43,363 bases of DNA. Source: Frankia torreyi (GTDB taxonomy: Bacteria; Actinomycetota; Actinomycetes; Frankiales; Frankiaceae). A program made the translations under genes and the position numbers. Below, piece by piece: positions 26,247 to 43,363 of the stretch. The stretch covers positions 1-43,363 of the forward strand of contig NZ_JYFN01000036.1 of assembly GCF_000948395.1 (NCBI RefSeq). Direction: 5' to 3'. Position 1 is the first letter of the stretch, and every line of letters begins with the position of its first letter. The notes below the pieces were generated by a model. The model had not been told where the DNA came from and searched no databases. It saw only the letters and a list, made by a program, of their open reading frames with translations.

Positions 26247-28142
26247 ATGACCCTGGCCCCGACCCTGCAGAAGGGCGCCAACGCACCCGTTCCCGCCGGG
26301 GTGCTACGCGTCGCGGTCGGCTGGGCGCCGGGCCGGGTGGTGGACGTCTGCGCCGTCCTCGTCACCGAGCGGGAGCGGGTTCGCTCCGACGCCGACTTCG
26401 TGTTCTTCAACGCGCCGAGTCACCCCTCGGGCGCGGTCACCCTGACGGCCGCGGGCCCCGGGACGGCCGGCCTGGTGGTGACGCTGCCCCGGGTGGAGCC
26501 GGCGGTGAGCCGGATCGTGATCGCCGGATCCCTCGACTCGGGGACCTTCGCCGACCTCGCCGACCTCGCCGTCGAGCTGACCGACCGAGCGGGCCGGCCG
26601 GTGGCCCGGTTCGTCGCGGAACCCGACGGGCCGGTCACCGCGCTGGTATTCGGGGAGCTCTACCGCCGGGCGGGTGGCTGGCGGTTCCGCGCCGTCGCCC
26701 AGGGCTGGGACAGCGGCCTCGCCGGCCTGGCCCGCGGCTTCGGCATCAACGTCCGCGCCGACATCCCCACCGACGACCCCGACGGCGACGCCCCGACCAG
26801 CACTCACCCGACCAGCGCCCACCCGACCAGCGCCGACGTCACCAGCAGCGGTCCGGCCAGTGACGATGCGGCCGGTCACGAGCCGACCGGTCACGAGCCG
26901 ACCGGTGTGGAGCCCACCCGGGTGCTGCCCGAGGTCGACGCGGATACCCGCTCAGCCAGCGAGGCCGGGGTCGGCGCCGAGGACGCTGTCACTGCCGGGG
27001 AGGAACGCGAGGCCCGCACCGACGAAGAGGCCGCGGCGCAGGCCGAGGTGCCGCGAAGCCGCTCGCCGCGTCCGGCGCGGCGGATCCGGGCGGACTGGTA
27101 TCCCGATCCGGTGCGCCCGGACCACATGCGCTGGTGGGACGGGGACCGCTGGCAGGGTCCGCCCACGCCGATCCTCACGGAGTCGGACACGAGCTGCGGA
27201 CGGTGCGGCGCCCGCAAGCGGTGGCGGCTGCTCGGCGGCCCGCCGGCCTGCGAGGAGTGTGCGCAGGCGATCCGGGCGTACCTGTGGGACTGGCGGGCCC
27301 GCGTGGTGTCGTCGCTGACGCGGGACGACCCGACCGGCGCCGACCTCGAACCGCTGTGGGCCGACCTGCGCTACCAGCGAATTCCGGAGTCGGCGGGCTG
27401 GGAGATCGTCCAGGCGGTCGGGCAGGCACACCTGGAACGGCTGACGGCGTTCGCGTTCACCGACGGGGTGATCGAGCCGGACGAGGTCGACCGCATCGAG
27501 GCGGCCGCCACGCGCCTGCACCTGGCCGGCCCAGAGCTCGACGCCCTGCGCCAACGCCTCGCCCGAGGCCTGGAGCTGACCCGGATCGGCGCCGGCGAGC
27601 TGCCCCGGCTGCCCGCGGGTTCCCTGCACCTCGACCTCGACGAGATCGTGCACCTCGACGCGCCGGCCACCCTGGTCCAGCAGGCCGCGGCCGGCCCCCG
27701 CCACGCCCCGGGTCGGCTGCTCGCCACCAACCGCAAGCTGCGCTTCCTCGGTGAGACCGGGCGGGGCGCCGAACTCGGCCTGTCGAAGATCGTCGAGGTG
27801 GAGGCGCGGGGCGGGTGCGTCGACATCGCCGCTACCACCACCCGTGGCTCGGGCAGCTACCTCGTGGACGACCCGCAGTACGTCGCCGCGGTGCTGGCCG
27901 GGATCCTGCGGGTCGCCCGACGGCAGGTCATCGCGCCGGGCAGCCGGGCGAGCCGGGCGATCCCGCAGGCGGTGAAGGCGGAGGTGTGGCGGCGCGACGG
28001 CGGGGTGTGCGTCGAGTGCGGGGGCGGCGAACACCTGGAGTTCGACCACGTGATCCCGTTCAGCCGCGGCGGCGCGTCCAGCGTCAACAACCTGCAGCTG
28101 CTGTGTCGGCGGTGTAACCGTTCCAAGGGCGCGCGGATCTGA
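26247..28142 (+). CDS. TerD-DUF2510-TerB-like-HNH multidomain protein
   Basis: A 631-residue fusion. Residues 1-170 are a TerD domain (calcium-binding tellurium-resistance family), opening LQKGANAPVPAG. A Thr/Pro/Glu-rich linker with PTSAHPTS and GHEPT repeats follows (180-280). DUF2510 is at 282-303 (DWYPDP...WWDGDRWQ). A four-Cys zinc ribbon uses C317, C320, C335 and C338. A helical TerB-like segment spans about 390-445 (FAFTDGVIEPDEVDRIE) and a PH-like segment about 485-557. An HNH nuclease ends the protein (578-628: C588, C591, D600, H601, N614, C620, C623, N624). ATG 26247 has GAAAGG just upstream. Ter proteins with nucleases have been proposed to be stress or conflict systems that process DNA. 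All nuclease residues look intact. Confidence 0.85.
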   Translation: MTLAPTLQKGANAPVPAGVLRVAVGWAPGRVVDVCAVLVTERERVRSDADFVFFNAPSHPSGAVTLTAAGPGTAGLVVTLPRVEPAVSRIVIAGSLDSGTFADLADLAVELTDRAGRPVARFVAEPDGPVTALVFGELYRRAGGWRFRAVAQGWDSGLAGLARGFGINVRADIPTDDPDGDAPTSTHPTSAHPTSADVTSSGPASDDAAGHEPTGHEPTGVEPTRVLPEVDADTRSASEAGVGAEDAVTAGEEREARTDEEAAAQAEVPRSRSPRPARRIRADWYPDPVRPDHMRWWDGDRWQGPPTPILTESDTSCGRCGARKRWRLLGGPPACEECAQAIRAYLWDWRARVVSSLTRDDPTGADLEPLWADLRYQRIPESAGWEIVQAVGQAHLERLTAFAFTDGVIEPDEVDRIEAAATRLHLAGPELDALRQRLARGLELTRIGAGELPRLPAGSLHLDLDEIVHLDAPATLVQQAAAGPRHAPGRLLATNRKLRFLGETGRGAELGLSKIVEVEARGGCVDIAATTTRGSGSYLVDDPQYVAAVLAGILRVARRQVIAPGSRASRAIPQAVKAEVWRRDGGVCVECGGGEHLEFDHVIPFSRGGASSVNNLQLLCRRCNRSKGARI

Positions 28143-28251: not shown

Positions 28252-30114
28252 GTGAACGGATCCATGGCACAGGCGGGAGATGCGTCCACGGTGGGGGCGA
28301 ACGACGTGGTGACGAACGACGTGGTGACGAGCGACGCGGTGGCGAGCGACGTGACAGCGGAAAGTGATGGGAGGGCCACGGCACCGGGCGTGTTACCGGT
28401 TTCGGCTGCCCCGCCGGCGCCGCGGACCCTGCCGTCGCAGCCGACGCCGGCTGCCCCGCCGGCCCCCGAGCCGGACGGTGGGACGGCCGCCGTCGGGTCG
28501 GACGGCACGGCGGTGCTCGCCGTCTGGTTCCTGACCACCGAGGAGCGCGGGAATCCGAGCACCGACCTCGACCGGCGCCATCCCGACGGCCGGCCGTGGA
28601 CCACCGGCAACCTCGTCGTGCCGCTCGTGCACGGCCGGGACTACTTCACCCGCCTGCTGGAGACCGTCGAGGGACTCGGCGACGGCGACCTGCTGCTGTT
28701 CACCGACTGGCGCGGGGACCTCGACCAGCGCCTGGACGGCGCCGGCTCCGAGGTCGGCGAGGTGCTGGGCCGGGCGGCCCGGCGCGGGGTGGCGGTCCGC
28801 GGCCTGATGTGGCGGTCCCACCTGGAGCTGCTGTCGTTCAGCTCGAAACCGAACCGGCTGCTCGCTGAGCAGCTCACCAGCTCCGGGGCTCGGGTCGTGC
28901 TGGATCAGCGGGTGCGCCGCGGCGGCTCCCACCACCAGAAGCTGGTCGTCGCGCGTCCCGCCGGCGATCCGGCGGCCGGTGTGGCCTTCGCCGGCGGGAT
29001 CGACCTGTGCTACAACCGGCGCGACGACGCGGCCCACGCGGGCGACCCGCAGAGCCAGCCGATGGCCGCCCCGTACGGCGACGCCCCGCCCTGGCACGAC
29101 ATCCAGGTGGAGGTGCGCGGCCCGGCCGTCGGCGATCTGGAGCACACCTTCCGCGAGCGGTGGGACGACCCGTCGAGCCTGGACAACCCGAACCCGCTGC
29201 GGCGGCTGTTCTACCGGATCCGCCCGGTGGCGACCCGGACCGACGAGCTGCCGCCCCAGCAGCCCGATCCGCCGGCGGCCGGCCCGCACAACGTCCAGAT
29301 CCTGCGGACCTACCCCCGCAAGCTGCGCCCGGCGTACCCGTTCGCCCGCGCGGGCGAACGCTCGATCGCCCGCGCCTACCAGAAGGTGCTCCGCCGCGCC
29401 CGCCGGCTGATCTACCTGGAGGACCAGTACATGTGGTCCGCCGAGGTCGCCCGGCTGTTCGCCGACGCGCTGCGCCGCTCCCCGGAGCTTCATCTGATCA
29501 TCGTGGTGCCGCGTCATCCCACCCAGGGCGGGCGGTTCTCGCTGCCACCGAACCTGGTCGGCCGGGAGCAGGCGCTGGAGCTGTGCCGGGCGGCGGGCGG
29601 CGACCGGGTCGGGGTGTACGACGTCGAGAACCACGCCGGCACCCCCGTGTACGTGCATGCCAAGGCGGTGACGGTCGACGACGTGTGGGCCTCGGTGGGG
29701 TCGGACAACCTCAACCGCCGGTCGTGGACGCACGACAGCGAGCTGGCCGTCGCGACGATCGATGACACGCTGGACCCGCGCGAGCCGCGCGACCCGGCCG
29801 GTCTGGGCGACGGCGCCCGGGTGTTCGCCCGGGACCTGCGGCTGCGGCTGTGGCGCGAGCACCTCGACTGGGCGGGCCCGGACGACGAGCTGCTCGACCC
29901 GGAGACCGGCTTCGCGGCGTTCCGTGCCCGCGCCGAGGACCTGGCCGCCTGGCATGCCGGCGGGCGGGTCGGGGATCGGCCGCCGGGGCGGGTCCGTCCG
30001 CACCGCCCGGCCCGGCTGAGCCGGTTGCGCCGGGCCTGGTCAGCTCCGCTCTACCACTCGATCTACGACCCCGACGGCCGGCCGCACCGGTTGCGCGCCG
30101 CAGGCGAGTGGTGA
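28252..30114 (+). CDS. Phospholipase D-like phosphodiesterase
   Basis: PLD-superfamily protein of 620 residues, likely cleaving or transferring phosphatidyl groups. The two HKD half-sites are H228-Q-K230 (SHHQKLVV) followed by AGGIDLCYN, and H469-A-K471 (VHAKAVTVDDVWASVGSDNLN). The first site has a long insertion before its Asp region. GTG 28252 has GAGGGAAGG four bases upstream. The first ~90 residues are low-complexity with VVTNDVV-type repeats and a Pro/Ala run, without an obvious signal peptide, so a cytoplasmic or peripheral location is likely. It follows the TerD-HNH gene by 109 bases on the same strand, but nothing proves a joint function. Confidence 0.92.
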   Translation: MNGSMAQAGDASTVGANDVVTNDVVTSDAVASDVTAESDGRATAPGVLPVSAAPPAPRTLPSQPTPAAPPAPEPDGGTAAVGSDGTAVLAVWFLTTEERGNPSTDLDRRHPDGRPWTTGNLVVPLVHGRDYFTRLLETVEGLGDGDLLLFTDWRGDLDQRLDGAGSEVGEVLGRAARRGVAVRGLMWRSHLELLSFSSKPNRLLAEQLTSSGARVVLDQRVRRGGSHHQKLVVARPAGDPAAGVAFAGGIDLCYNRRDDAAHAGDPQSQPMAAPYGDAPPWHDIQVEVRGPAVGDLEHTFRERWDDPSSLDNPNPLRRLFYRIRPVATRTDELPPQQPDPPAAGPHNVQILRTYPRKLRPAYPFARAGERSIARAYQKVLRRARRLIYLEDQYMWSAEVARLFADALRRSPELHLIIVVPRHPTQGGRFSLPPNLVGREQALELCRAAGGDRVGVYDVENHAGTPVYVHAKAVTVDDVWASVGSDNLNRRSWTHDSELAVATIDDTLDPREPRDPAGLGDGARVFARDLRLRLWREHLDWAGPDDELLDPETGFAAFRARAEDLAAWHAGGRVGDRPPGRVRPHRPARLSRLRRAWSAPLYHSIYDPDGRPHRLRAAGEW

Positions 30115-36743: not shown

Positions 36744-36816
36744 GCGCCGTTAGCTCAATTGGCAGAGCAGCGGACTCTTAATCCGCGGGTTCGGGGTTCA
36801 AGTCCCTGACGGCGCA
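36744..36816 (+). tRNA. tRNA-Lys (CTT anticodon); AICE attachment site
   Basis: Cloverleaf: acceptor GCGCCGT (36744-36750) with ACGGCGC (36809-36815), discriminator A at 36816, anticodon stem GCGGA/TCCGC with loop CTCTTAA (anticodon CTT), and a T-arm with GGTTCAAGT. CCA is not encoded. An integrase gene begins at its 3' side, 168 bases away and pointing toward it. The 3' half of the gene is therefore the likely integration core (attL). Confidence 0.96.
36774..36816. mobile_element. Probable attL core of the AICE in the 3' half of tRNA-Lys
   Basis: Tyrosine integrases of AICEs usually recombine within the anticodon-to-3'-end part of a tRNA gene, and the element restores that part. The integrase is adjacent and Pra, TraB, RepSA and Xis genes follow, so this segment is the expected core. 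The matching attR lies beyond the window, so the exact borders are not proven. Confidence 0.55.
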
Positions 36817-36984
36817 CCCGCTCCCACCAGGTCATATGACTTTCGGTGATGTATTTAGAGTGATCTCTGTACCCAAGTTTGTACCCTAGCTCTTCGCGCC
36901 TCGGTGACAGAGACGGCAGACGCCCCGGGCCGCTGCGCGAGGTACACAGCCATCCGGGGCGCCCCTGGCTCCTTGGGTGCAGCG

Positions 36985-38211
36985 TCAGCCCGCCAGTTCC
37001 TCGCCGTCGTCCTCGTCGGGTTCGTCGTCGTCGCTGTGCGTCGGCTCGCCGAAGATCCGGTCAAGTCGGTCGACCGCGTCGCGCTGCGTCTCGGGCATCA
37101 CGTGGGTGTACGTGTTCATGGTGAGCTGGATCGTGGAGTGCCCGAGCAGCTCCATCACCGTCCGGGCCGGCACCCCCTCGGCGAAGAGCATCGACGCGAA
37201 CGCATGGCGAAGGTCATGCAGCCGAAGCCACGGCAGATCGGCCTGACGGCGCAGGACCTCGAACCGCCGGTTGACGTTGCGCGGCTCCAGGGGCGTGCCG
37301 ACCGACGAGGTGAACACCAGGCCGGTTTCCGTCCACGCGTCGCCGAGCCCCGTCCGTTCCGCGGTCTGCGTGGCGCGGTGTCGCCGCAGGATCGTCACCA
37401 GCCGGGGCGGGATCGGCAGCTTCCGGTGTGAACGGTCCGTCTTCGCCGGGACGAACCGCAACGAGCCGTCCACCCGTTGCAGCGTCTGCCGGACCTGGAG
37501 CGTGGCGCCGCCCAGGTCCACGTCCGTCCAGCGAAGGCCGAGAATTTCACCGCGCCGGAGCCCGAGCATCAGACCGCAGGCGAAGACCGCTTCGAGCCGT
37601 TCACCGCGGAGGACCTCGACGAGCCGGCGTGCCTCTTCCGGCCGCAGCGCGCGCACCTCACGATGGGGCACGGGGGGCGCCTTGACCGCCTTCGCCACGT
37701 TGCGCGCGACCAGGTCGAGCCGTTCGGCTTCCGCCAGGGAGTTGCGGATCAGGCTGTGCACGTGCCGGACACTTCCCGCGGACAGGCCGGCCTTCCTCGC
37801 CGTGCTGACGAGCCGCCGCACGTCCAGCGGCGTGAGCTTGTCGAGCTGGACACGACCGATCACCGGAATGATGTGCGTGTTGATCAGCCAGCGGTAGGCG
37901 CGGAGCGTCGAGGCCCGCGTTCCGTCCCCTTCCTTGATTTCCAGCCACTCCCCCAGCCAGACCGCCGTCGTCCGGCGCTCGGCGGTGACGTTGACGCCGA
38001 GTTCCGCCGCGCGCTTGACCTTGTCGAGCTTCTGCCGGCATTCCTTCTCGGTCTTGGCGTAGACCGTCTTCCGGACGCGTTTACCGCCCTCCCAGCCGAG
38101 ATCCAGGCGACCGACCCACATGCCATCGCTGGACCGCTGAAACAAGGCGCCCTCGCCCTGCGAGCGTCGCCGCTTCTGCCGGTCGTCTCCACCGGCGGAC
38201 CGCGCGGCCAT
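36985..38211 (-). CDS. int: Tyrosine recombinase, AICE integrase
   Basis: Site-specific tyrosine recombinase of 408 residues that integrates and excises the element at tRNA-Lys. It has an N-terminal arm-binding region, a SAM-like core-binding domain (about 80-170), and a catalytic domain with R219 in GLRRGE, H332-x-x-R335 in LHDLRHAF, H358 in LLGHST, and nucleophile Y368 in MNTYTHV. The C-terminus is a run of Asp/Glu. I chose ATG 38211 because it overlaps the stop of the upstream 69-residue gene as TGATG, giving translational coupling; an open frame to 38295 lies inside that gene. Its orientation toward the tRNA is the standard AICE arrangement. Confidence 0.95.
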   Translation of the reverse strand: MAARSAGGDDRQKRRRSQGEGALFQRSSDGMWVGRLDLGWEGGKRVRKTVYAKTEKECRQKLDKVKRAAELGVNVTAERRTTAVWLGEWLEIKEGDGTRASTLRAYRWLINTHIIPVIGRVQLDKLTPLDVRRLVSTARKAGLSAGSVRHVHSLIRNSLAEAERLDLVARNVAKAVKAPPVPHREVRALRPEEARRLVEVLRGERLEAVFACGLMLGLRRGEILGLRWTDVDLGGATLQVRQTLQRVDGSLRFVPAKTDRSHRKLPIPPRLVTILRRHRATQTAERTGLGDAWTETGLVFTSSVGTPLEPRNVNRRFEVLRRQADLPWLRLHDLRHAFASMLFAEGVPARTVMELLGHSTIQLTMNTYTHVMPETQRDAVDRLDRIFGEPTHSDDDEPDEDDGEELAG

Positions 38212-38420
38212 CAGGCCACGTCCAGCGGGTTGCCGCCCGGCCATTCGACCGCGTCGCACCAAGGGCAGCCGTAGGAGCTGTCTTCCATGTCGCACGCGAA
38301 CTTGGTCTCTCCGTCGGCCTGTGGGTAGGTGCGTCCCTGGCCGCGGGCGGCCCGGTCGAGGTGGTCGGTCAGCGCCTGAACGAGAGCAATTCTGGGCGCC
38401 GCCGGGGGGTGGGTGGGCAT
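38211..38420 (-). CDS. Small Cys-containing AICE protein
   Basis: Protein of 69 residues, no family recognised. The C-terminal half has FACDMEDSSYGCPWCDAVEW, with a C-x2-C pair plus an earlier Cys that may bind a metal. The N-terminus is an Ala/Leu-rich helix (IALVQALTDHLDRAARGQG). ATG 38420 has AAGGAG 11 bases upstream; longer frames run into a structured non-coding stretch. Its stop overlaps the integrase start by one base (TGATG), so the two are made together. It could be a recombination or copy-control accessory factor (inference from position only). Confidence 0.7.
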   Translation of the reverse strand: MPTHPPAAPRIALVQALTDHLDRAARGQGRTYPQADGETKFACDMEDSSYGCPWCDAVEWPGGNPLDVA

Positions 38421-38504
38421 GGTGAGCACAGCTCCTTGCCGGAAGAAGAACGGGAACAGGTGCGCGGGCCGCGGGTGGGATTGCCCGGTGCCGGTGGGGT
38501 TCCG

Positions 38505-38635
38505 GTTCTCTGGCGCAGGAATGGTCTGCCGGGGCGCCGGCCGCATCCAGGGCGCTGCGCGTCGCTGCGCGATCGGCCTGCGGCCGACCCTGGACCCGTC
38601 CGACACCCCGACAGCTTCAGGCGCCACCAGAGAAC
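38505..38635. other. Structured intergenic segment in the AICE
   Basis: The 246-base gap between two AICE genes holds nested inverted repeats: GTTCTCTGG (38505-38513) with CCAGAGAAC (38627-38635); inside it CCAGGG (38547-38552) with CCCTGG (38588-38593); and inside that CGGCC/GGCCG (38574-38586). Such a cruciform-like stack could be integrase arm sites, a replication or transfer site, or an RNA structure. No gene is supported here. Confidence 0.45.
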
Positions 38636-38666
38636 GGAAGAAAAATGGGTGGGGCGACAGGTCCCG

Positions 38667-38966
38667 CTACGGGCGGGTGACGCTTGCCGCCGCCGGACCC
38701 GCCGTGGGGCTCCCGCCGGTCGGGGTGGTTGCCGGACGTTCGGGGACCGGTCGGAAGATCAGGGTGGCGTCGACGTCGCCGTAGTGTTCGGTGAAGAAGG
38801 CGTCCGGCGGCAGGGTGGCGAGCAGGGCGACCAGGTCGCCGATGTCCGCGCCGGGGCGAATGGTCAGTTCGTGGTCGCCGTTGTGGTCGACCCGGGCGAG
38901 GAGCATCGGGTGGTCGTCGCCGGGGGTGCGCCATGCGCCGTGCGCGTCGGACGAGAAGATGGGCAC
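38667..38966 (-). CDS. Hypothetical AICE protein
   Basis: Protein of 99 residues, acidic in the middle (ARVDHNGDHELTIRPGADIG) with a Pro/Thr/Ala tail. No family recognised. GTG 38966 has AAGGAG eight bases upstream, so the gene is probably real. It lies between the excisionase and integrase genes in the order typical of AICE cargo or accessory genes. A 145-base gap with a strong hairpin separates it from the excisionase gene. Confidence 0.62.
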   Translation of the reverse strand: MPIFSSDAHGAWRTPGDDHPMLLARVDHNGDHELTIRPGADIGDLVALLATLPPDAFFTEHYGDVDATLIFRPVPERPATTPTGGSPTAGPAAASVTRP

Positions 38967-39004
38967 AGGTCTCTCTCCTTGTTAAGGCCAAGGGGTGGGG
39001 CTCA

Positions 39005-39045
39005 GGTCCCGGTCGGGTGTTCCAGCACCCGCCGGGACCGTCTTT
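39005..39045 (+). terminator. Plus-strand terminator-like hairpin inside the AICE operon
   Basis: GGTCCCGG (39005-39012) plus CGGGTG (39014-39019) pair with CACCCG (39026-39031) plus CCGGGACC (39032-39039). This makes 14 pairs with one bulged T and a TTCCAG loop. On the plus strand it is followed by GTCTTTT (39040-39046), so it reads as an intrinsic terminator for plus-strand transcription, although all AICE genes here are on the minus strand. Confidence 0.6.
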
Positions 39046-39111
39046 TGGTTTGCCGAGAAGTCGCGCTCGCCCCTGGTGGTCCGCGGGCCGGGGCGTAGGG
39101 GCGTTTGCCGG

Positions 39112-39297
39112 TCATGCGGCGTGTCCCTCGCCGCGCAGCCGGGCGACGAAGGTGACCAGCGCGGCCGAGGGGATGCGCCGCGACCGGCCGATGCGCACGG
39201 ATTCGATGTCGCCGGAGTTCATGAGTTCGTAGATGGTGCTGCGGCTGACGCCGAGGAGTTCCGCGGCCTCGGTAGGAGTGAGCAGGAGCTTGGTCAC
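39112..39297 (-). CDS. xis: Excisionase (MerR-like helix-turn-helix)
   Basis: DNA-binding protein of 61 residues that directs the integrase toward excision. It is a single winged-helix domain of the HTH_17/excisionase type: LLTPTEAAELLGVSRSTIYE, followed by SGDIESVRIGRSRRIPSAAL. GTG 39297 has GGAGAGG four bases upstream. It follows the RepSA-type gene by 33 bases on the same strand, as in pSAM2-like AICEs, where rep, xis and int are expressed together under the Pra activator. Confidence 0.92.
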   Translation of the reverse strand: MTKLLLTPTEAAELLGVSRSTIYELMNSGDIESVRIGRSRRIPSAALVTFVARLRGEGHAA

Positions 39298-39330
39298 GGG
39301 TCCTCTCCGTGGATGTCCAGGGGGTGGGGT

Positions 39331-41034
39331 TCAGGCGGCATCGGGCAGCGGTGGGCCGGTTGCCGGAAGCAGGCCCCCGCCGGCCGCAGCACGAGCGGCG
39401 TCGAGTTGGGCCCGCCAGGCGTGGCGTTGCGCGACGGCGTGCAACAGGAGGTGTTCGCGGCGGGGTGCGGCAGGGTCGCCGGGGCGCAGGAGCTGCCAGG
39501 CGGTGCGATTCGCGGCAGGGTCGCCGGCCGGTCCGTCGCCGGTGTGGCCGAAGGCTTCGAGTTGCTGGCGGATGAACGCGACCCGGTCGTGCCGGTGGTC
39601 GGTAAGGGTTTTGCCGGACCAGCGCCGCGAGACCAGGACGCGCCGGCCGCCGAAGCCGAGGGTTTCCCGCCGGTGGACCTTGCCCTTGCACCGTCCCGGG
39701 ACGAGACCGGGTCGGGCGTTGCGGGGTTGGATGCCGTAGCGCAGCCAGTTCGCGCAGGTCGGGGAGCAGGGTTCGTGGCGCAGGGCGTCGGCGAGCCGGT
39801 CGACGTGGCGTCGTTGCGGGTCGCTGGCGATGTCGTGGCAGGCGTCGAGGCTTTTGGTCAGGTACTTGGTCAGGTAGCCGATCATCCGGCCGGTGGTGGC
39901 CGTGTTCGCGGTCACCCCGTCGGCGCGGAGTTGGGGGCCGAAGCGGACGACGTGGGCGGGTTCGTCGTCCTCGCCGATGCCGTCGAGTGCGTCATCCCAG
40001 GACAGCAGCGGCGCCCCGGTGTCGGGGTCGACGTAGCCGCCGGCGGTGTCGTCCCAGGCGGGTAGCCGGTGGTCGTCGTAGACCGGCCGGTCGGTCGACG
40101 GCCACCAGACCTGGTGATAGGTCGCCGCTGCCACCAGGCGCAGCATCGCCCGGGGCACGGTGCCGCGGATCGCCGCGTGCAGATGCGGCGCAAGGCGCTT
40201 CTGTGGTTCAAGGGCGGCGAAGTACTGGACATCCCAGCCGACCGCGCGGCGCAGGTTCTGCCAGAACCGATCGATCAGCTTCGGGAAGTGGATCGCGTCC
40301 CGCGCCGCCCGCCGGTAGTCGTACGACGCCGGGTCGACCGGGGTTCCGTCCTTGTGCACGTGGCCGTAGCTGTCGCAGGTCAGGGTGAGGAACATCGACG
40401 GCCGCCACACCGTCCCGTCCGCCGCCTCGAAGGTCTGCCCGACGGTGCGCCGGTCGACGGGGAGCCGGGGCAGGTCGGGGGCATCCTGACGCCTCTTCGT
40501 CGAGCGGACACGGCGCGGCCGGTCCCGGTTGTCCGGGGCAGCCTTGCCACGCACACCGAGCGCGGCCAGTTCGTCGTCGACCTGGCCGATCAGCTCGTCG
40601 ATCTCCCCAGCCTGCTCGGTGTCGCCGGCCGCCAGGACGTCGGCGCGGGCCGCTTCGAGGTCCGCGCGCAGGGTCGCCAGGGCTTTGGCGTCGCCGGTCG
40701 GCGGGTCGGGGTCGGGGACCGGTTCGTCGTCGAGGTGCCAGCCGGTCTTGCACTGCGCCATCCGCAGCCGACGCGCTTTCTCCGCACACGGAGGACATTT
40801 CGATGCCAACGTGGCGCCGCAGGGGACAGGGATGATCTGTGTTTCGCCGGTGTCCAGGTTGGTGCGGCGCATCGGCATCGGCCGGATACACACCCCGTTT
40901 TCCACCGCGACGGCTTCGACGACGTGGCGGGCCAGCGGCATCCGCATGCGGGCGGCCCGGGAACCCGGACGCTCACCGCCCCCAGGGGAAGGGACGGGAG
41001 CGGCCGGGTCAGGTCCGAGGGATAGCGCGGTCAC
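39331..41034 (-). CDS. repSA: Rolling-circle replication initiator, RepSA family
   Basis: HUH-type Rep protein of 567 residues that nicks the element's double-strand origin to start rolling-circle replication. A Cys cluster near the N-terminus (C72, C80, C83, C95) suggests a zinc-binding fold. Motif 1 is MFLTLTCDSYG (about 214-224), the HUH motif 2 is PHLHAAI (H284, H286), and motif 3 candidate tyrosines are Y387 and Y391 in YLTKYLTK. GTG 41034 overlaps the TraB stop as GTGA. In pSAM2 the double-strand origin lies inside the rep gene, so an origin within this reading frame is possible, but I cannot locate it by eye. Confidence 0.93.
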   Translation of the reverse strand: MTALSLGPDPAAPVPSPGGGERPGSRAARMRMPLARHVVEAVAVENGVCIRPMPMRRTNLDTGETQIIPVPCGATLASKCPPCAEKARRLRMAQCKTGWHLDDEPVPDPDPPTGDAKALATLRADLEAARADVLAAGDTEQAGEIDELIGQVDDELAALGVRGKAAPDNRDRPRRVRSTKRRQDAPDLPRLPVDRRTVGQTFEAADGTVWRPSMFLTLTCDSYGHVHKDGTPVDPASYDYRRAARDAIHFPKLIDRFWQNLRRAVGWDVQYFAALEPQKRLAPHLHAAIRGTVPRAMLRLVAAATYHQVWWPSTDRPVYDDHRLPAWDDTAGGYVDPDTGAPLLSWDDALDGIGEDDEPAHVVRFGPQLRADGVTANTATTGRMIGYLTKYLTKSLDACHDIASDPQRRHVDRLADALRHEPCSPTCANWLRYGIQPRNARPGLVPGRCKGKVHRRETLGFGGRRVLVSRRWSGKTLTDHRHDRVAFIRQQLEAFGHTGDGPAGDPAANRTAWQLLRPGDPAAPRREHLLLHAVAQRHAWRAQLDAARAAAGGGLLPATGPPLPDAA

Positions 41035-42611
41035 GCGGCATCGTCGAGCCGGTCGAGGGGATCGGGGGCATCGTCGGGGTCGTGGCCGCTGAAGGCGTCG
41101 AGATCAGGCACCCAGCCGCCGGCCGCCGCCGGTCGGTAAGTGTGCACGGTGCGGGTGATCTCGTCGTCGTCGATGAGCGCGGCCCGGACCCGGATGGGGT
41201 CGGGGTTGCCGTCGTGCAGGACGTAGCCGACCCCGGGCAGGGACAGCGGGATCTCCTCGGCGCGGGCGCCCCGGTCCCGGGCACCAGAACCAAGGACGAG
41301 GTCGGCCTGGTCGGGTTCGGTCATCCGCAGCGCCACCCGCACCGGGAACAGATCCCGGAACGGCAGCACCTCCTTACGCGGGTCCTGCACCGCGGCCAGG
41401 ACCACCACCCCGGGCGCCCGGCCCTGCGACAGCAGCAGCGGCAACGCCGCCCCGATCCGCTTCTTCAGCTCCCGGTCGGTCACGTACGCGGTCAGCGAGG
41501 CGATCTCGTCGACCACCAGAACGATCAGCGGCTCTGTGGTCGTCGGAGTGTGTAGCCGGGTCACACCGGACAGCCGGGCGGTCCGGTCCTGCATCACGGT
41601 CACGGCGTCGTCGAGGAGAGCGGCGATGGTGTCCGTGGTGGTGGCAAACCGGGTGAACATCGCCCGGCCGAAGGCCAGTTCCATCCCGCCCTTCGGGTCG
41701 CACACCCACAGCTCCACCAGCCCCGCCCGTACCGCCGGGCCGAGGCCCCGCAACGCCGACCACAGCACCGAGCCCTTACCCGCGCCGGTGGCACCGGCGA
41801 CGAGGACATGCGTCCCACGCACGGGCAGCGTCCAGGGCGATCCGTCCTCGCAGCGGCCCACGGGAATGGCGGACAGTCCGGCGACGAGCCGGGCGTAAGC
41901 GGCGTGGACGGGTCCGCGGTCCGGGTCGACGCCGGCCGCGTCAGGGTCGGCATCGCCCGGACCGCTGCTCATCCCGTCGAGCCGGGCCGGGGTGACAGGA
42001 CGGGCGAGGGTGTCACGGTGGTGGAAGTGCAGCCGGACGAAGCGGAATGTCTCGGCCTGCACCTGGCAGCGCCGGGCCCGGAAGATGTGCCGCAGCGCCT
42101 CGCCCTGCTCCGCCCACTGCTCGGGGGTCTGACCGGGCAGCAGTTCCACCCGCAGCACGTCCACAGCCCGAGTGGAACGGATCGTGCGGATACGCGGGAA
42201 GTACTCGTCGAAGGTCACCTGATCGGCGTTCGAGGTCGGCATGCGGATGGCAAGGTCGGTGTGGACCATCGCCGCTCGCCAGCGCCACCGGTAGACGAAC
42301 GCCAGCCGCGTCCGGCCCCACAGCCAGCGGCCCAGCCAGGAGCACGACCGCGGGTGCAGCCGCGCCCAAACCAGCACCACCACGACCAGCCCGCCGGCCA
42401 GCGCGGCGAGACCGAGCAGTCCGAACCGGTGGACGAACAGCAGCAGCCCGACCACGACCGTGACCGCGACCCGGTGCCGGAAGCACCAGCGGACCGCCAG
42501 CCACAGGCCCTTGCCCGCGACGGCCAGCAGCAGCATCCACAACGGCACCCGCACCTTGTCCGCACGGGTCGGAATGCGCGGCGCCGGCCGGTCACCCCTG
42601 ATTCTGGACAT
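41031..42611 (-). CDS. FtsK/SpoIIIE-type DNA translocase (TraB/TraSA transfer protein)
   Basis: Conjugative transfer ATPase of about 526 residues that pumps double-stranded DNA between hyphae. Two or three membrane helices (about 25-85) anchor it. The motor has Walker A GATGAGKGSV (near 272) and Walker B LIVLVVDEIASL (near 365). A short C-terminal region would carry the DNA-recognition part; it is not a full FtsK gamma domain by eye. ATG 42611 has AGGTGG eight bases upstream; GTG 42623 is an alternative. It is upstream of and overlapping the RepSA-type gene. Known TraB proteins act alone, without a type IV secretion system. Confidence 0.93.
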   Translation of the reverse strand: MSRIRGDRPAPRIPTRADKVRVPLWMLLLAVAGKGLWLAVRWCFRHRVAVTVVVGLLLFVHRFGLLGLAALAGGLVVVVLVWARLHPRSCSWLGRWLWGRTRLAFVYRWRWRAAMVHTDLAIRMPTSNADQVTFDEYFPRIRTIRSTRAVDVLRVELLPGQTPEQWAEQGEALRHIFRARRCQVQAETFRFVRLHFHHRDTLARPVTPARLDGMSSGPGDADPDAAGVDPDRGPVHAAYARLVAGLSAIPVGRCEDGSPWTLPVRGTHVLVAGATGAGKGSVLWSALRGLGPAVRAGLVELWVCDPKGGMELAFGRAMFTRFATTTDTIAALLDDAVTVMQDRTARLSGVTRLHTPTTTEPLIVLVVDEIASLTAYVTDRELKKRIGAALPLLLSQGRAPGVVVLAAVQDPRKEVLPFRDLFPVRVALRMTEPDQADLVLGSGARDRGARAEEIPLSLPGVGYVLHDGNPDPIRVRAALIDDDEITRTVHTYRPAAAGGWVPDLDAFSGHDPDDAPDPLDRLDDAA

Positions 42612-42739
42612 GACAAATACCACCTGATTTCGAGCGCACGAAACGACAGGAGAGAAGGGAAGGAAGCAAGGAAGCGCGGCAGGCGGGCCTGAATTATGGG
42701 AACCCTCTGGGCCGCCGGCCGGAAAAGAGAGTGGTAGTG

Positions 42740-43027
42740 CTATGCGGCGCGTTTCTCCGTCGCCGGGTCTGCTGATTCCTCCGCCTCGAACTGGCGGGTC
42801 TCGCAGGCGTTGAGGTAGTCGTTCACTCCGGCCAGCAGCGCATAAGCGAAGTTGATCTGATCGGTGTTCGGGGTGTCCTGCTTCGCCGAGACGACCAGCG
42901 ACATCCCAGCGGCATCGACGGCCAGGATCGGCCCGCGGTCCGGGTAGGTGTGGCAGGTCACCCGCCAGTCCCCGCCAACGGACAGGCCCACCGACAGGTA
43001 CGACGGCGTCCGCTCTCCGCCGCTCAT
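42740..43027 (-). CDS. Conserved AICE hypothetical protein
   Basis: Protein of 95 residues (MSGGERTPSYLSVGLSVGGD onwards), resembling small unknown proteins encoded next to Pra in streptomycete elements. It has DWRVTCHTYPDRGPILAVDA in the first half and a helical NFAYALLAGVNDYLNACETRQ in the second, ending in an acidic, Ala-rich tail. ATG 43027 overlaps the Pra-like stop (ATGA); the earlier frame start at 43132 is inside that gene. The 128-base gap to the TraB gene shows no other gene. Confidence 0.75.
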   Translation of the reverse strand: MSGGERTPSYLSVGLSVGGDWRVTCHTYPDRGPILAVDAAGMSLVVSAKQDTPNTDQINFAYALLAGVNDYLNACETRQFEAEESADPATEKRAA

Positions 43028-43363
43028 GCCGCGACCGCCGACGCGCGCCGGCCTGACTGGCCCACGGCCACCATCGCCGCCGCCCGAAACGCGAAACCCT
43101 GCCGCGGACGAGACCCGTTGGTGTCCACCCACGGCGTCACCGTCAAACCCTCGAACACCACCGGCCGAAACGGCGTCCCCGGCATCACCTCCGGCGGAAC
43201 CGGCTGCACCTCACCGGTGATCTTCACCTTCACCTCGGCCTGCCGGGCCGCCGGGTCCGCGTCCAACACCCGCACCACCCACACCCGCTCGCCGGTGTCC
43301 TTGTCCCGTGCCTGCACGTCCGGCAGGTTCGCCTTCACCTTGTCATAGTCGTTCGACGCCTCC
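43024..43363 (-). CDS. Pra-like replication/integration/excision activator (5' partial)
   Basis: C-terminal part (at least 112 residues) of a protein matching the actinomycete plasmid replication, integration and excision activator family (Pra of pSAM2). Tell-tale stretches are QARDKDTGERVWVVRVLDAD, KVKITGEVQPVPPE and GTPFRPVVFEGLTVTPWV. The frame stays open to the window edge (EASNDYDKVKANLPD before the internal GTG 43338), and family members start well before this point, so the start lies beyond the window. Pra turns on the rep-xis-int genes in pSAM2 (known), so it probably controls the operon seen here. Its TGA overlaps the next ATG. Confidence 0.85.
   Translation of the reverse strand, partial: EASNDYDKVKANLPDVQARDKDTGERVWVVRVLDADPAARQAEVKVKITGEVQPVPPEVMPGTPFRPVVFEGLTVTPWVDTNGSRPRQGFAFRAAAMVAVGQSGRRASAVAA

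Follow-up and report, generated by a model that had tools for sequence, protein, structure and literature searches.

A TerD–HNH nuclease fusion of Frankia torreyi and its relatives in a Deinococcus Ter operon and in prophage-like contigs

Domain layout of the Frankia protein

The stretch of Frankia torreyi DNA analysed here (43,363 nucleotides, hereafter the window) carries a coding sequence of 631 amino acids (P0001, 26247..28142), called from its translation and from full-length homologues, which combines TerD, DUF2510, zinc-ribbon-like (ZnR), TerB-like, PH-like and HNH nuclease parts; features are on the plus strand unless stated otherwise. Its ATG at 26247 follows a GAAAGG-type ribosome site, read by eye, and the homologues start at the same ATG and residues. 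Downstream lies a gene for a phospholipase D (PLD)-like protein (28252..30114; Pfam PLDc_2, 8.1e-10), a neighbour not shown to belong with P0001. The 7.6 Mb genome holds one full-length copy of this type and eight further TerD-type matches.

Residues 1–170 (26247..26756) make up the TerD domain, where PF02342 matches residues 6–165 at 7e-30 (104.3 bits against a cut-off of 25.3), and this part also matches PDB entries 3ibz and 2kxt. The Pfam match recurs in all 35 members of alignment A1, the set of relatives described below. Stand-alone TerD proteins bind Ca2+ through a GDNxTG-type loop, as known from the KP-TerD literature, and PF02342 does not require this loop. A motif count over the relatives, together with alignment to 2kxt and 3ibz, showed that the G[DN][DN]x[TS]G loop is present in 0/35 relatives and is also absent from two Deinococcus proteins (P0002 and P0003). 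Because of this absence, Ca2+ sensing by the fused TerD appears doubtful, judged from sequence, although D48, D50 and N55 are retained.

The TerD domain is followed by a disordered linker (residues 171–280, 26757..27086) rich in Pro, Ala, Asp, Glu and Thr, of which residues 172–269 are unstructured in the full model (pLDDT <50) and whose length ranges from 0 to 197 residues across relatives. DUF2510 (residues 284–307, 27096..27167) matches PF10708 at 8.5e-6, above the cut-off, and is seen in 35/35 A1 members at E<=0.5. Next comes a Cys4 zinc-ribbon-like motif formed by C317, C320, C335 and C338 (27189..27266), invariant in all 35 relatives; no Pfam zinc-ribbon model matches it in P0001.

In an AlphaFold model of residues 309–631 (mean pLDDT 83.8), a small Cys-rich segment comes first and is followed by a helical domain, then by a PH-like barrel and the HNH part. 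The helical domain (residues 343–450, 27273..27596) is TerB-like on the evidence of its modelled helices and of its relatives: the TerB model PF05099 finds no match in P0001, matches weakly in 4/35 A1 members (best 0.029), reaches 1.4e-4 in the D. radiodurans homologue P0002 (22.6 bits, below the 24.4-bit cut-off) and passes the cut-off in the prophage relative L225 (1.3e-8, 35.6 bits). A comparison with Frankiaceae TerB by hhalign is suggestive only (E 0.0017, prob 15.7), and P0001 bears a DG.I...E motif at 406–413 that resembles TerB. Residues 455–565 (27609..27941) have a PH-like fold in the predicted model, with a seven-strand barrel and a C-terminal helix; the barrel superposes on the Lam6 PH-like domain 5yqr with Z 13.0 and rmsd 2.0 over 95 residues (VIA-align), and many further PH folds rank close to 5yqr. 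Foldseek searches with the whole model gave poor superpositions, mainly on PH proteins, and a viral structure library returned chiefly partial PH or HNH matches.

The C-terminal HNH nuclease domain (residues 566–631, 27942..28139) matches PF01844 over residues 588–630 at 1.1e-12 (48.3 bits against a cut-off of 21.4), and the profile of A1 matches the McrA structure 6ghc through this domain at 1.3e-5. Its residue set of C588, C591, D600, H601, N615, C620, C623, N624 and K627 is invariant in 35/35 relatives, and the Cys4/His/Asn set is complete in P0001, so that the active site is apparently intact. PADLOC returned weak, HNH-only matches to type II/IV restriction models (best 1.4e-6), and P0001 had no full-length match there to a known anti-phage defence system. 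An IscB/Cas9-like guide nuclease was considered and rejected, since in NCBIfam only the HNH stretch of those models matches, far below the cut-offs.

A sequence-only reading of this DNA had already proposed the same parts on one chain. TerD, DUF2510 and HNH are borne out by Pfam, the PH-like part by the model and the zinc-ribbon-like part by its invariant cysteines, and the TerB-like part is suggested by way of relatives. The nuclease residues it listed also hold, in P0001 and in the 35 full-length relatives, apart from N614, a non-invariant neighbour of the actual asparagine N615. Domain matches and invariant catalytic residues thus agree with its placing of sensor and nuclease on a single chain. 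Its suggestion of a cell-surface effector fared worse: no part of P0001 resembles a transmembrane segment (19-residue Kyte-Doolittle means peak at 1.53), Pfam finds no domain of such a kind, and a cell-surface or secreted effector was therefore rejected.

Conservation and distribution of the family

Of the 37 distinct homologues of full length that we collected, 35, from Frankia, other Frankiaceae, Nocardia and Dactylosporangium, were aligned as A1. All 28 tabulated positions, which run from TerD to HNH and were picked from the list of invariant positions, are invariant in 35/35 relatives; they include C317, C320, C335, C338, D406, E413 and the HNH set. Values of dN/dS against seven other Frankia sequences, obtained by a counting method with a custom script, are 0–0.24 for HNH, 0.14–0.38 for DUF2510-ZnR-TerB-PH, 0.24–0.72 for TerD and 0.68–1.04 for the linker. 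From these values, the HNH is the most constrained part and is under purifying selection, and the linker evolves nearly neutrally.

The architecture of TerD, DUF2510, ZnR, TerB, PH and HNH was found in Frankia, Nocardia and Dactylosporangium, and a form without DUF2510 in Deinococcus. Distribution of the C-terminal core (residues 309–631) is patchy: it is present in 8/12 relatives of the same genus and in 9/22 genomes from other genera of Frankiaceae (one of them truncated), the other 13 being without it. At the level of the class, 25/393 sampled genomes match the core at 1e-12, comprising 20 with most of the core, one short TerD-less form (G333), one truncated copy (G017) and three with HNH only. 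A profile search of the phylum sample matched 43/396 genomes, three over the whole core and 40 at the HNH end only. Frankiaceae generally carry PRTase_2; G333 has no PRTase_2 match, and the nuclease is thus able to occur without the PRTase_2 module.

Two observations concern reduced forms of the gene. In G017, the TerD-HNH gene is cut to a remnant of the HNH end of ~100 aa (L160, 8092-8388), a decaying copy, and the intact gene of Frankia sp. AgB1.9 (L049, 8001-9665) has the same gene neighbourhood. Short forms of ~335-345 aa, with ZnR-TerB-PH-HNH and neither TerD nor DUF2510, occur in L219 (800-1837) and L136 (1495-2496), both in Mycobacterium-like sequence close to phage-type genes.

Genomic surroundings in actinobacteria, Deinococcus and prophages

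The PLD-like gene lies downstream of the homologue, on the same strand, in 7/7 close Frankia loci (the window and L038-L043), and the whole surrounding block is syntenic in these loci as well. None of the ten more distant Frankiaceae or divergent-copy loci (L049, L145-L150, L152, L153, L155; two of them almost flankless on one side) has the PLD gene, TerF or a pair of small membrane proteins seen in Nocardia; L151, where the gene caller missed the gene, was left unscored, and L160 is the truncated remnant. The sequence-only reading had pointed to this PLD-like neighbour, and the adjacency is real among close relatives; block synteny in the seven loci and absence from the ten others make it weak evidence for a functional pairing.

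No Ter gene adjoins P0001 in the window, and a Ter operon context is likewise absent from all ten other Frankiaceae loci. Elsewhere in the F. torreyi genome, another contig carries the PRTase_2 that belongs to the Ter biosynthetic module, two TerB genes occur at other sites, and the genome gave no match to the TerF vWA domain. Further along the window, an integrative element of pSAM2/AICE type occupies 36744-43362, read as far as the window end; it starts with tRNA-Lys (36744-36818) and encodes on the minus strand an integrase (36985-38211), a RepSA replication initiator (39331-40947) and an FtsK-like gene (41031-42554). A prophage origin of the window copy was considered and set aside, as no adjoining phage gene was recognised and the nearest integrative element found lies ~9 kb away.

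In Nocardia, TerF (TerD-vWA) is encoded within about 6.4 kb of the homologue in 17/22 loci (L044-L048, L050-L053, L055-L060, L062, L107, L114, L154, L156-L158, with fragment L054 excluded; L154 and L156-L158 were assigned to Nocardia by shared genus label and synteny), a neighbourhood that is partly plain synteny. A divergent pair of paralogous two-helix membrane proteins of ~90-97 aa is also found near the homologue in 19/22 of these loci. One example adjoins TerD-HNH and TerF in L047 (9752-10519), and one member of the pair has a weak match to TrbC/VirB2 pilin (0.0022). At L061, the locus from Dactylosporangium, none of these genes (PLD, TerF, small membrane pair) lies nearby.

Two full-length relatives, from D. 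radiodurans and D. radiophilus, emerged when 72,556 plasmid records were searched at the protein level. The D. radiodurans protein P0002 aligns with 98% of the C-terminal core of P0001 at 38% identity; its gene is on a 412 kb record near bphP, with no further annotated Ter gene within 12 kb, and we take it to be DRA0057 from that position rather than from a locus tag. On D. radiophilus pRadio2, TerD-HNH stands first in an operon, followed by TerD, TerF, TerD, TerD and DUF475, and the operon is divergent from genes for ATP-grasp, PRTase, HAD, AIM24, StiP and HpcH proteins; among the pRadio2 genes tested, Pfam identified ATPgrasp_Ter, PRTase_2/TRSP, vWA-TerF-like and DUF475/TerC. This single operon is the strongest direct tie of the family to the Ter system.

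Among viral sequences, an IMG/VR search matched 73 loci, eight of which (L218-L225) match well beyond the HNH part. The L221 protein has the layout TerD-(TerB-like)-PH-HNH, and its gene runs antisense to flanking tape-measure, major-head and other genes, as is typical of cargo genes. In L218, an integrase gene precedes the gene for the complete form, DUF2510 included. TerD is missing from the forms in L219 and L220, which have tail-like and recombinase genes in their vicinity; here the gene could lie at the contig's host edge. TerB-PH-HNH forms are encoded by L224 and L225, and L222 and L223 encode the same protein, in which Pfam shows HNH only. PDC-S48, a candidate defence family in PADLOC, matches the TerB region of L224 (3962-5311, 5.1e-10) and L225 (7359-8723, 3.9e-14) as well as the TerB-like region of L221, and does not match P0001. 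Searches of 50,697 phage records gave no full-length relative, only HNH- or TerD-sized matches, and when the Deinococcus protein served as query in a second scan of viral sequences, again no full-length relative appeared.

Proposed function and comparison with known systems

Relatives in a Deinococcus Ter operon, beside Nocardia Ter genes and in prophages make a signal-controlled DNA cutter probable. Our specific proposal, which we consider about evenly poised between right and wrong, is that P0001 is a cytosolic DNase gated by a Ter signal and directed against invading or damaged and stressed DNA; here we infer DNA as the substrate, Ter-signal gating and the invader as target. The Ter biosynthetic module would make a nucleoside-like alarm signal upon invading DNA or chemical or DNA stress, and the TerD and TerB domains might bind this signal, or else a metal or further Ter proteins. 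Positioning of P0001 on a partner, a membrane or nucleic acid could fall to the PH-like domain together with the zinc ribbon, and the long flexible linker would free the C-terminal HNH to nick or cut DNA.

In favour of this proposal are the domains, the invariant positions and the dN/dS values, the D. radiophilus operon and the Nocardia TerF genes, PRTase_2 and TerB in the F. torreyi genome itself, prophage-like carriage and the patchy distribution. Published work points the same way: in the model set out in PMC7824862, TerB and TerD may detect a signal of nucleoside type and the system acts against phages, and PMC8123226 links ter operons to phage inhibition. Against it, the Frankia copy lies outside a Ter operon in a genome without a TerF vWA match, and 13/22 Frankiaceae of other genera lack the core although PRTase_2 is general there. 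The TerD loop is absent, no phage record holds a full-length relative, PADLOC matches are confined to HNH, the G333 nuclease occurs without PRTase_2, and the Nocardia neighbourhood is partly synteny. The link to conflict proposed in the sequence-only reading holds up indirectly, through the homologue that heads a complete D. radiophilus Ter operon and through relatives in prophage-like contigs.

The radiation-resistant hosts D. radiodurans and D. radiophilus suggest another role, in which TerD and TerB sense oxidative or DNA-damage stress and the HNH trims damaged self DNA as a stress-induced repair or processing nuclease, possibly in DRA0057 too. Strong purifying selection on the HNH would fit, as would passages in PMC10614293 that list DRA0057 and cite a stress-response role for TerDEXZ; we nevertheless hold this to be possible but rather unlikely, as a core repair enzyme would hardly be so patchily distributed or be carried by prophages, no recurring repair gene was seen beside the homologues at the loci compared, and D. 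rubellus Ant6 is without the gene according to PMC10614293. Without any Ter signal, P0001 might instead be a stand-alone, McrA-like restriction enzyme dependent on modification or structure, with TerD, TerB and PH as fixed structural or DNA-reading parts. The HNH matches to 6ghc and to PADLOC type II/IV restriction models, along with the existence of TerD-less forms, speak for this; it is unlikely in our judgement, given that Pfam finds no known DNA-modification reader domain in P0001 and that the D. radiophilus copy has a Ter-operon context.

The viral loci raise a further reading, of a nuclease derived from phages or other elements, superinfection-exclusion cargo domesticated in actinobacteria and serving prophages rather than the cell. 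It could account for the L221 copy, which runs antisense to the tail tape-measure and other structural genes on either side, for L218 downstream of an integrase gene and for the phage family phrog_6050 spanning TerB-PH-HNH of L221, yet the chromosomal block around the window copy is syntenic over seven Frankia loci, with no recognised phage gene adjacent to that copy, and the D. radiophilus copy sits in a Ter operon, and we regard it as distinctly improbable.

Returning to a DNase gated by a Ter signal, the Ter system, which inhibits phages, occurs in many bacteria as well as on resistance plasmids. With both of its proposed sensor domains on a nuclease that heads a Ter operon, this system would have a direct, testable output, raising the question of whether a Ter signal switches on DNA cutting. 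More tentatively, as a possibility that we would not call probable, TerB-PH-HNH proteins, often with TerD, may be unrecognised single-protein anti-invader effectors, the nucleoside-like Ter product a second messenger that activates DNases, and Ter a CBASS-like immunity of chromosomes, Ter plasmids and prophages.

The basic fusion of TerD and nuclease is already known: DRA0057 was reported earlier as a fusion of an endonuclease with TerDEXZ/CABP (Makarova et al. 2001, cited by PMC10614293, which places it among unusual endonuclease fusions and describes D. rubellus Ant6 as lacking a DRA0057-type gene). The sequence-only view that DNA-processing partners of Ter proteins are usually separate genes overlooks this fusion. 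For the TerD-DUF2510-HNH form our search found no publication; Anantharaman et al. 2012, outside that search, may describe it. The TerD-HNH fusion itself is therefore not new, and the interest lies in the broader TerB-PH-HNH family, found in prophages as well as in Ter operons. DRA0057 of D. radiodurans joins TerD and HNH on one chain as P0001 does; unlike P0001, P0002 has no DUF2510 Pfam match and a short linker. With McrA-type (6ghc) and IscB/Cas9 HNH nucleases, P0001 has in common the CxxC...DH...N...CxxC(N/H) residues, but only this nuclease domain of ~60 residues, and no other part matched. The phage family phrog_6050, named just HNH endonuclease, matches P0001 in the HNH alone (3.7e-15) and covers the TerB-PH-HNH region of L221 (3.3e-50), the matched part being without TerD. 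Finally, the Ter system of TerB, TerD, TerF, TerC and ATP-grasp/PRTase/HAD proteins, as summarised in PMC7824862, shares TerD and TerB-like domains with P0001, which, unlike that system, adds a nuclease and at the window stands apart from any Ter gene.
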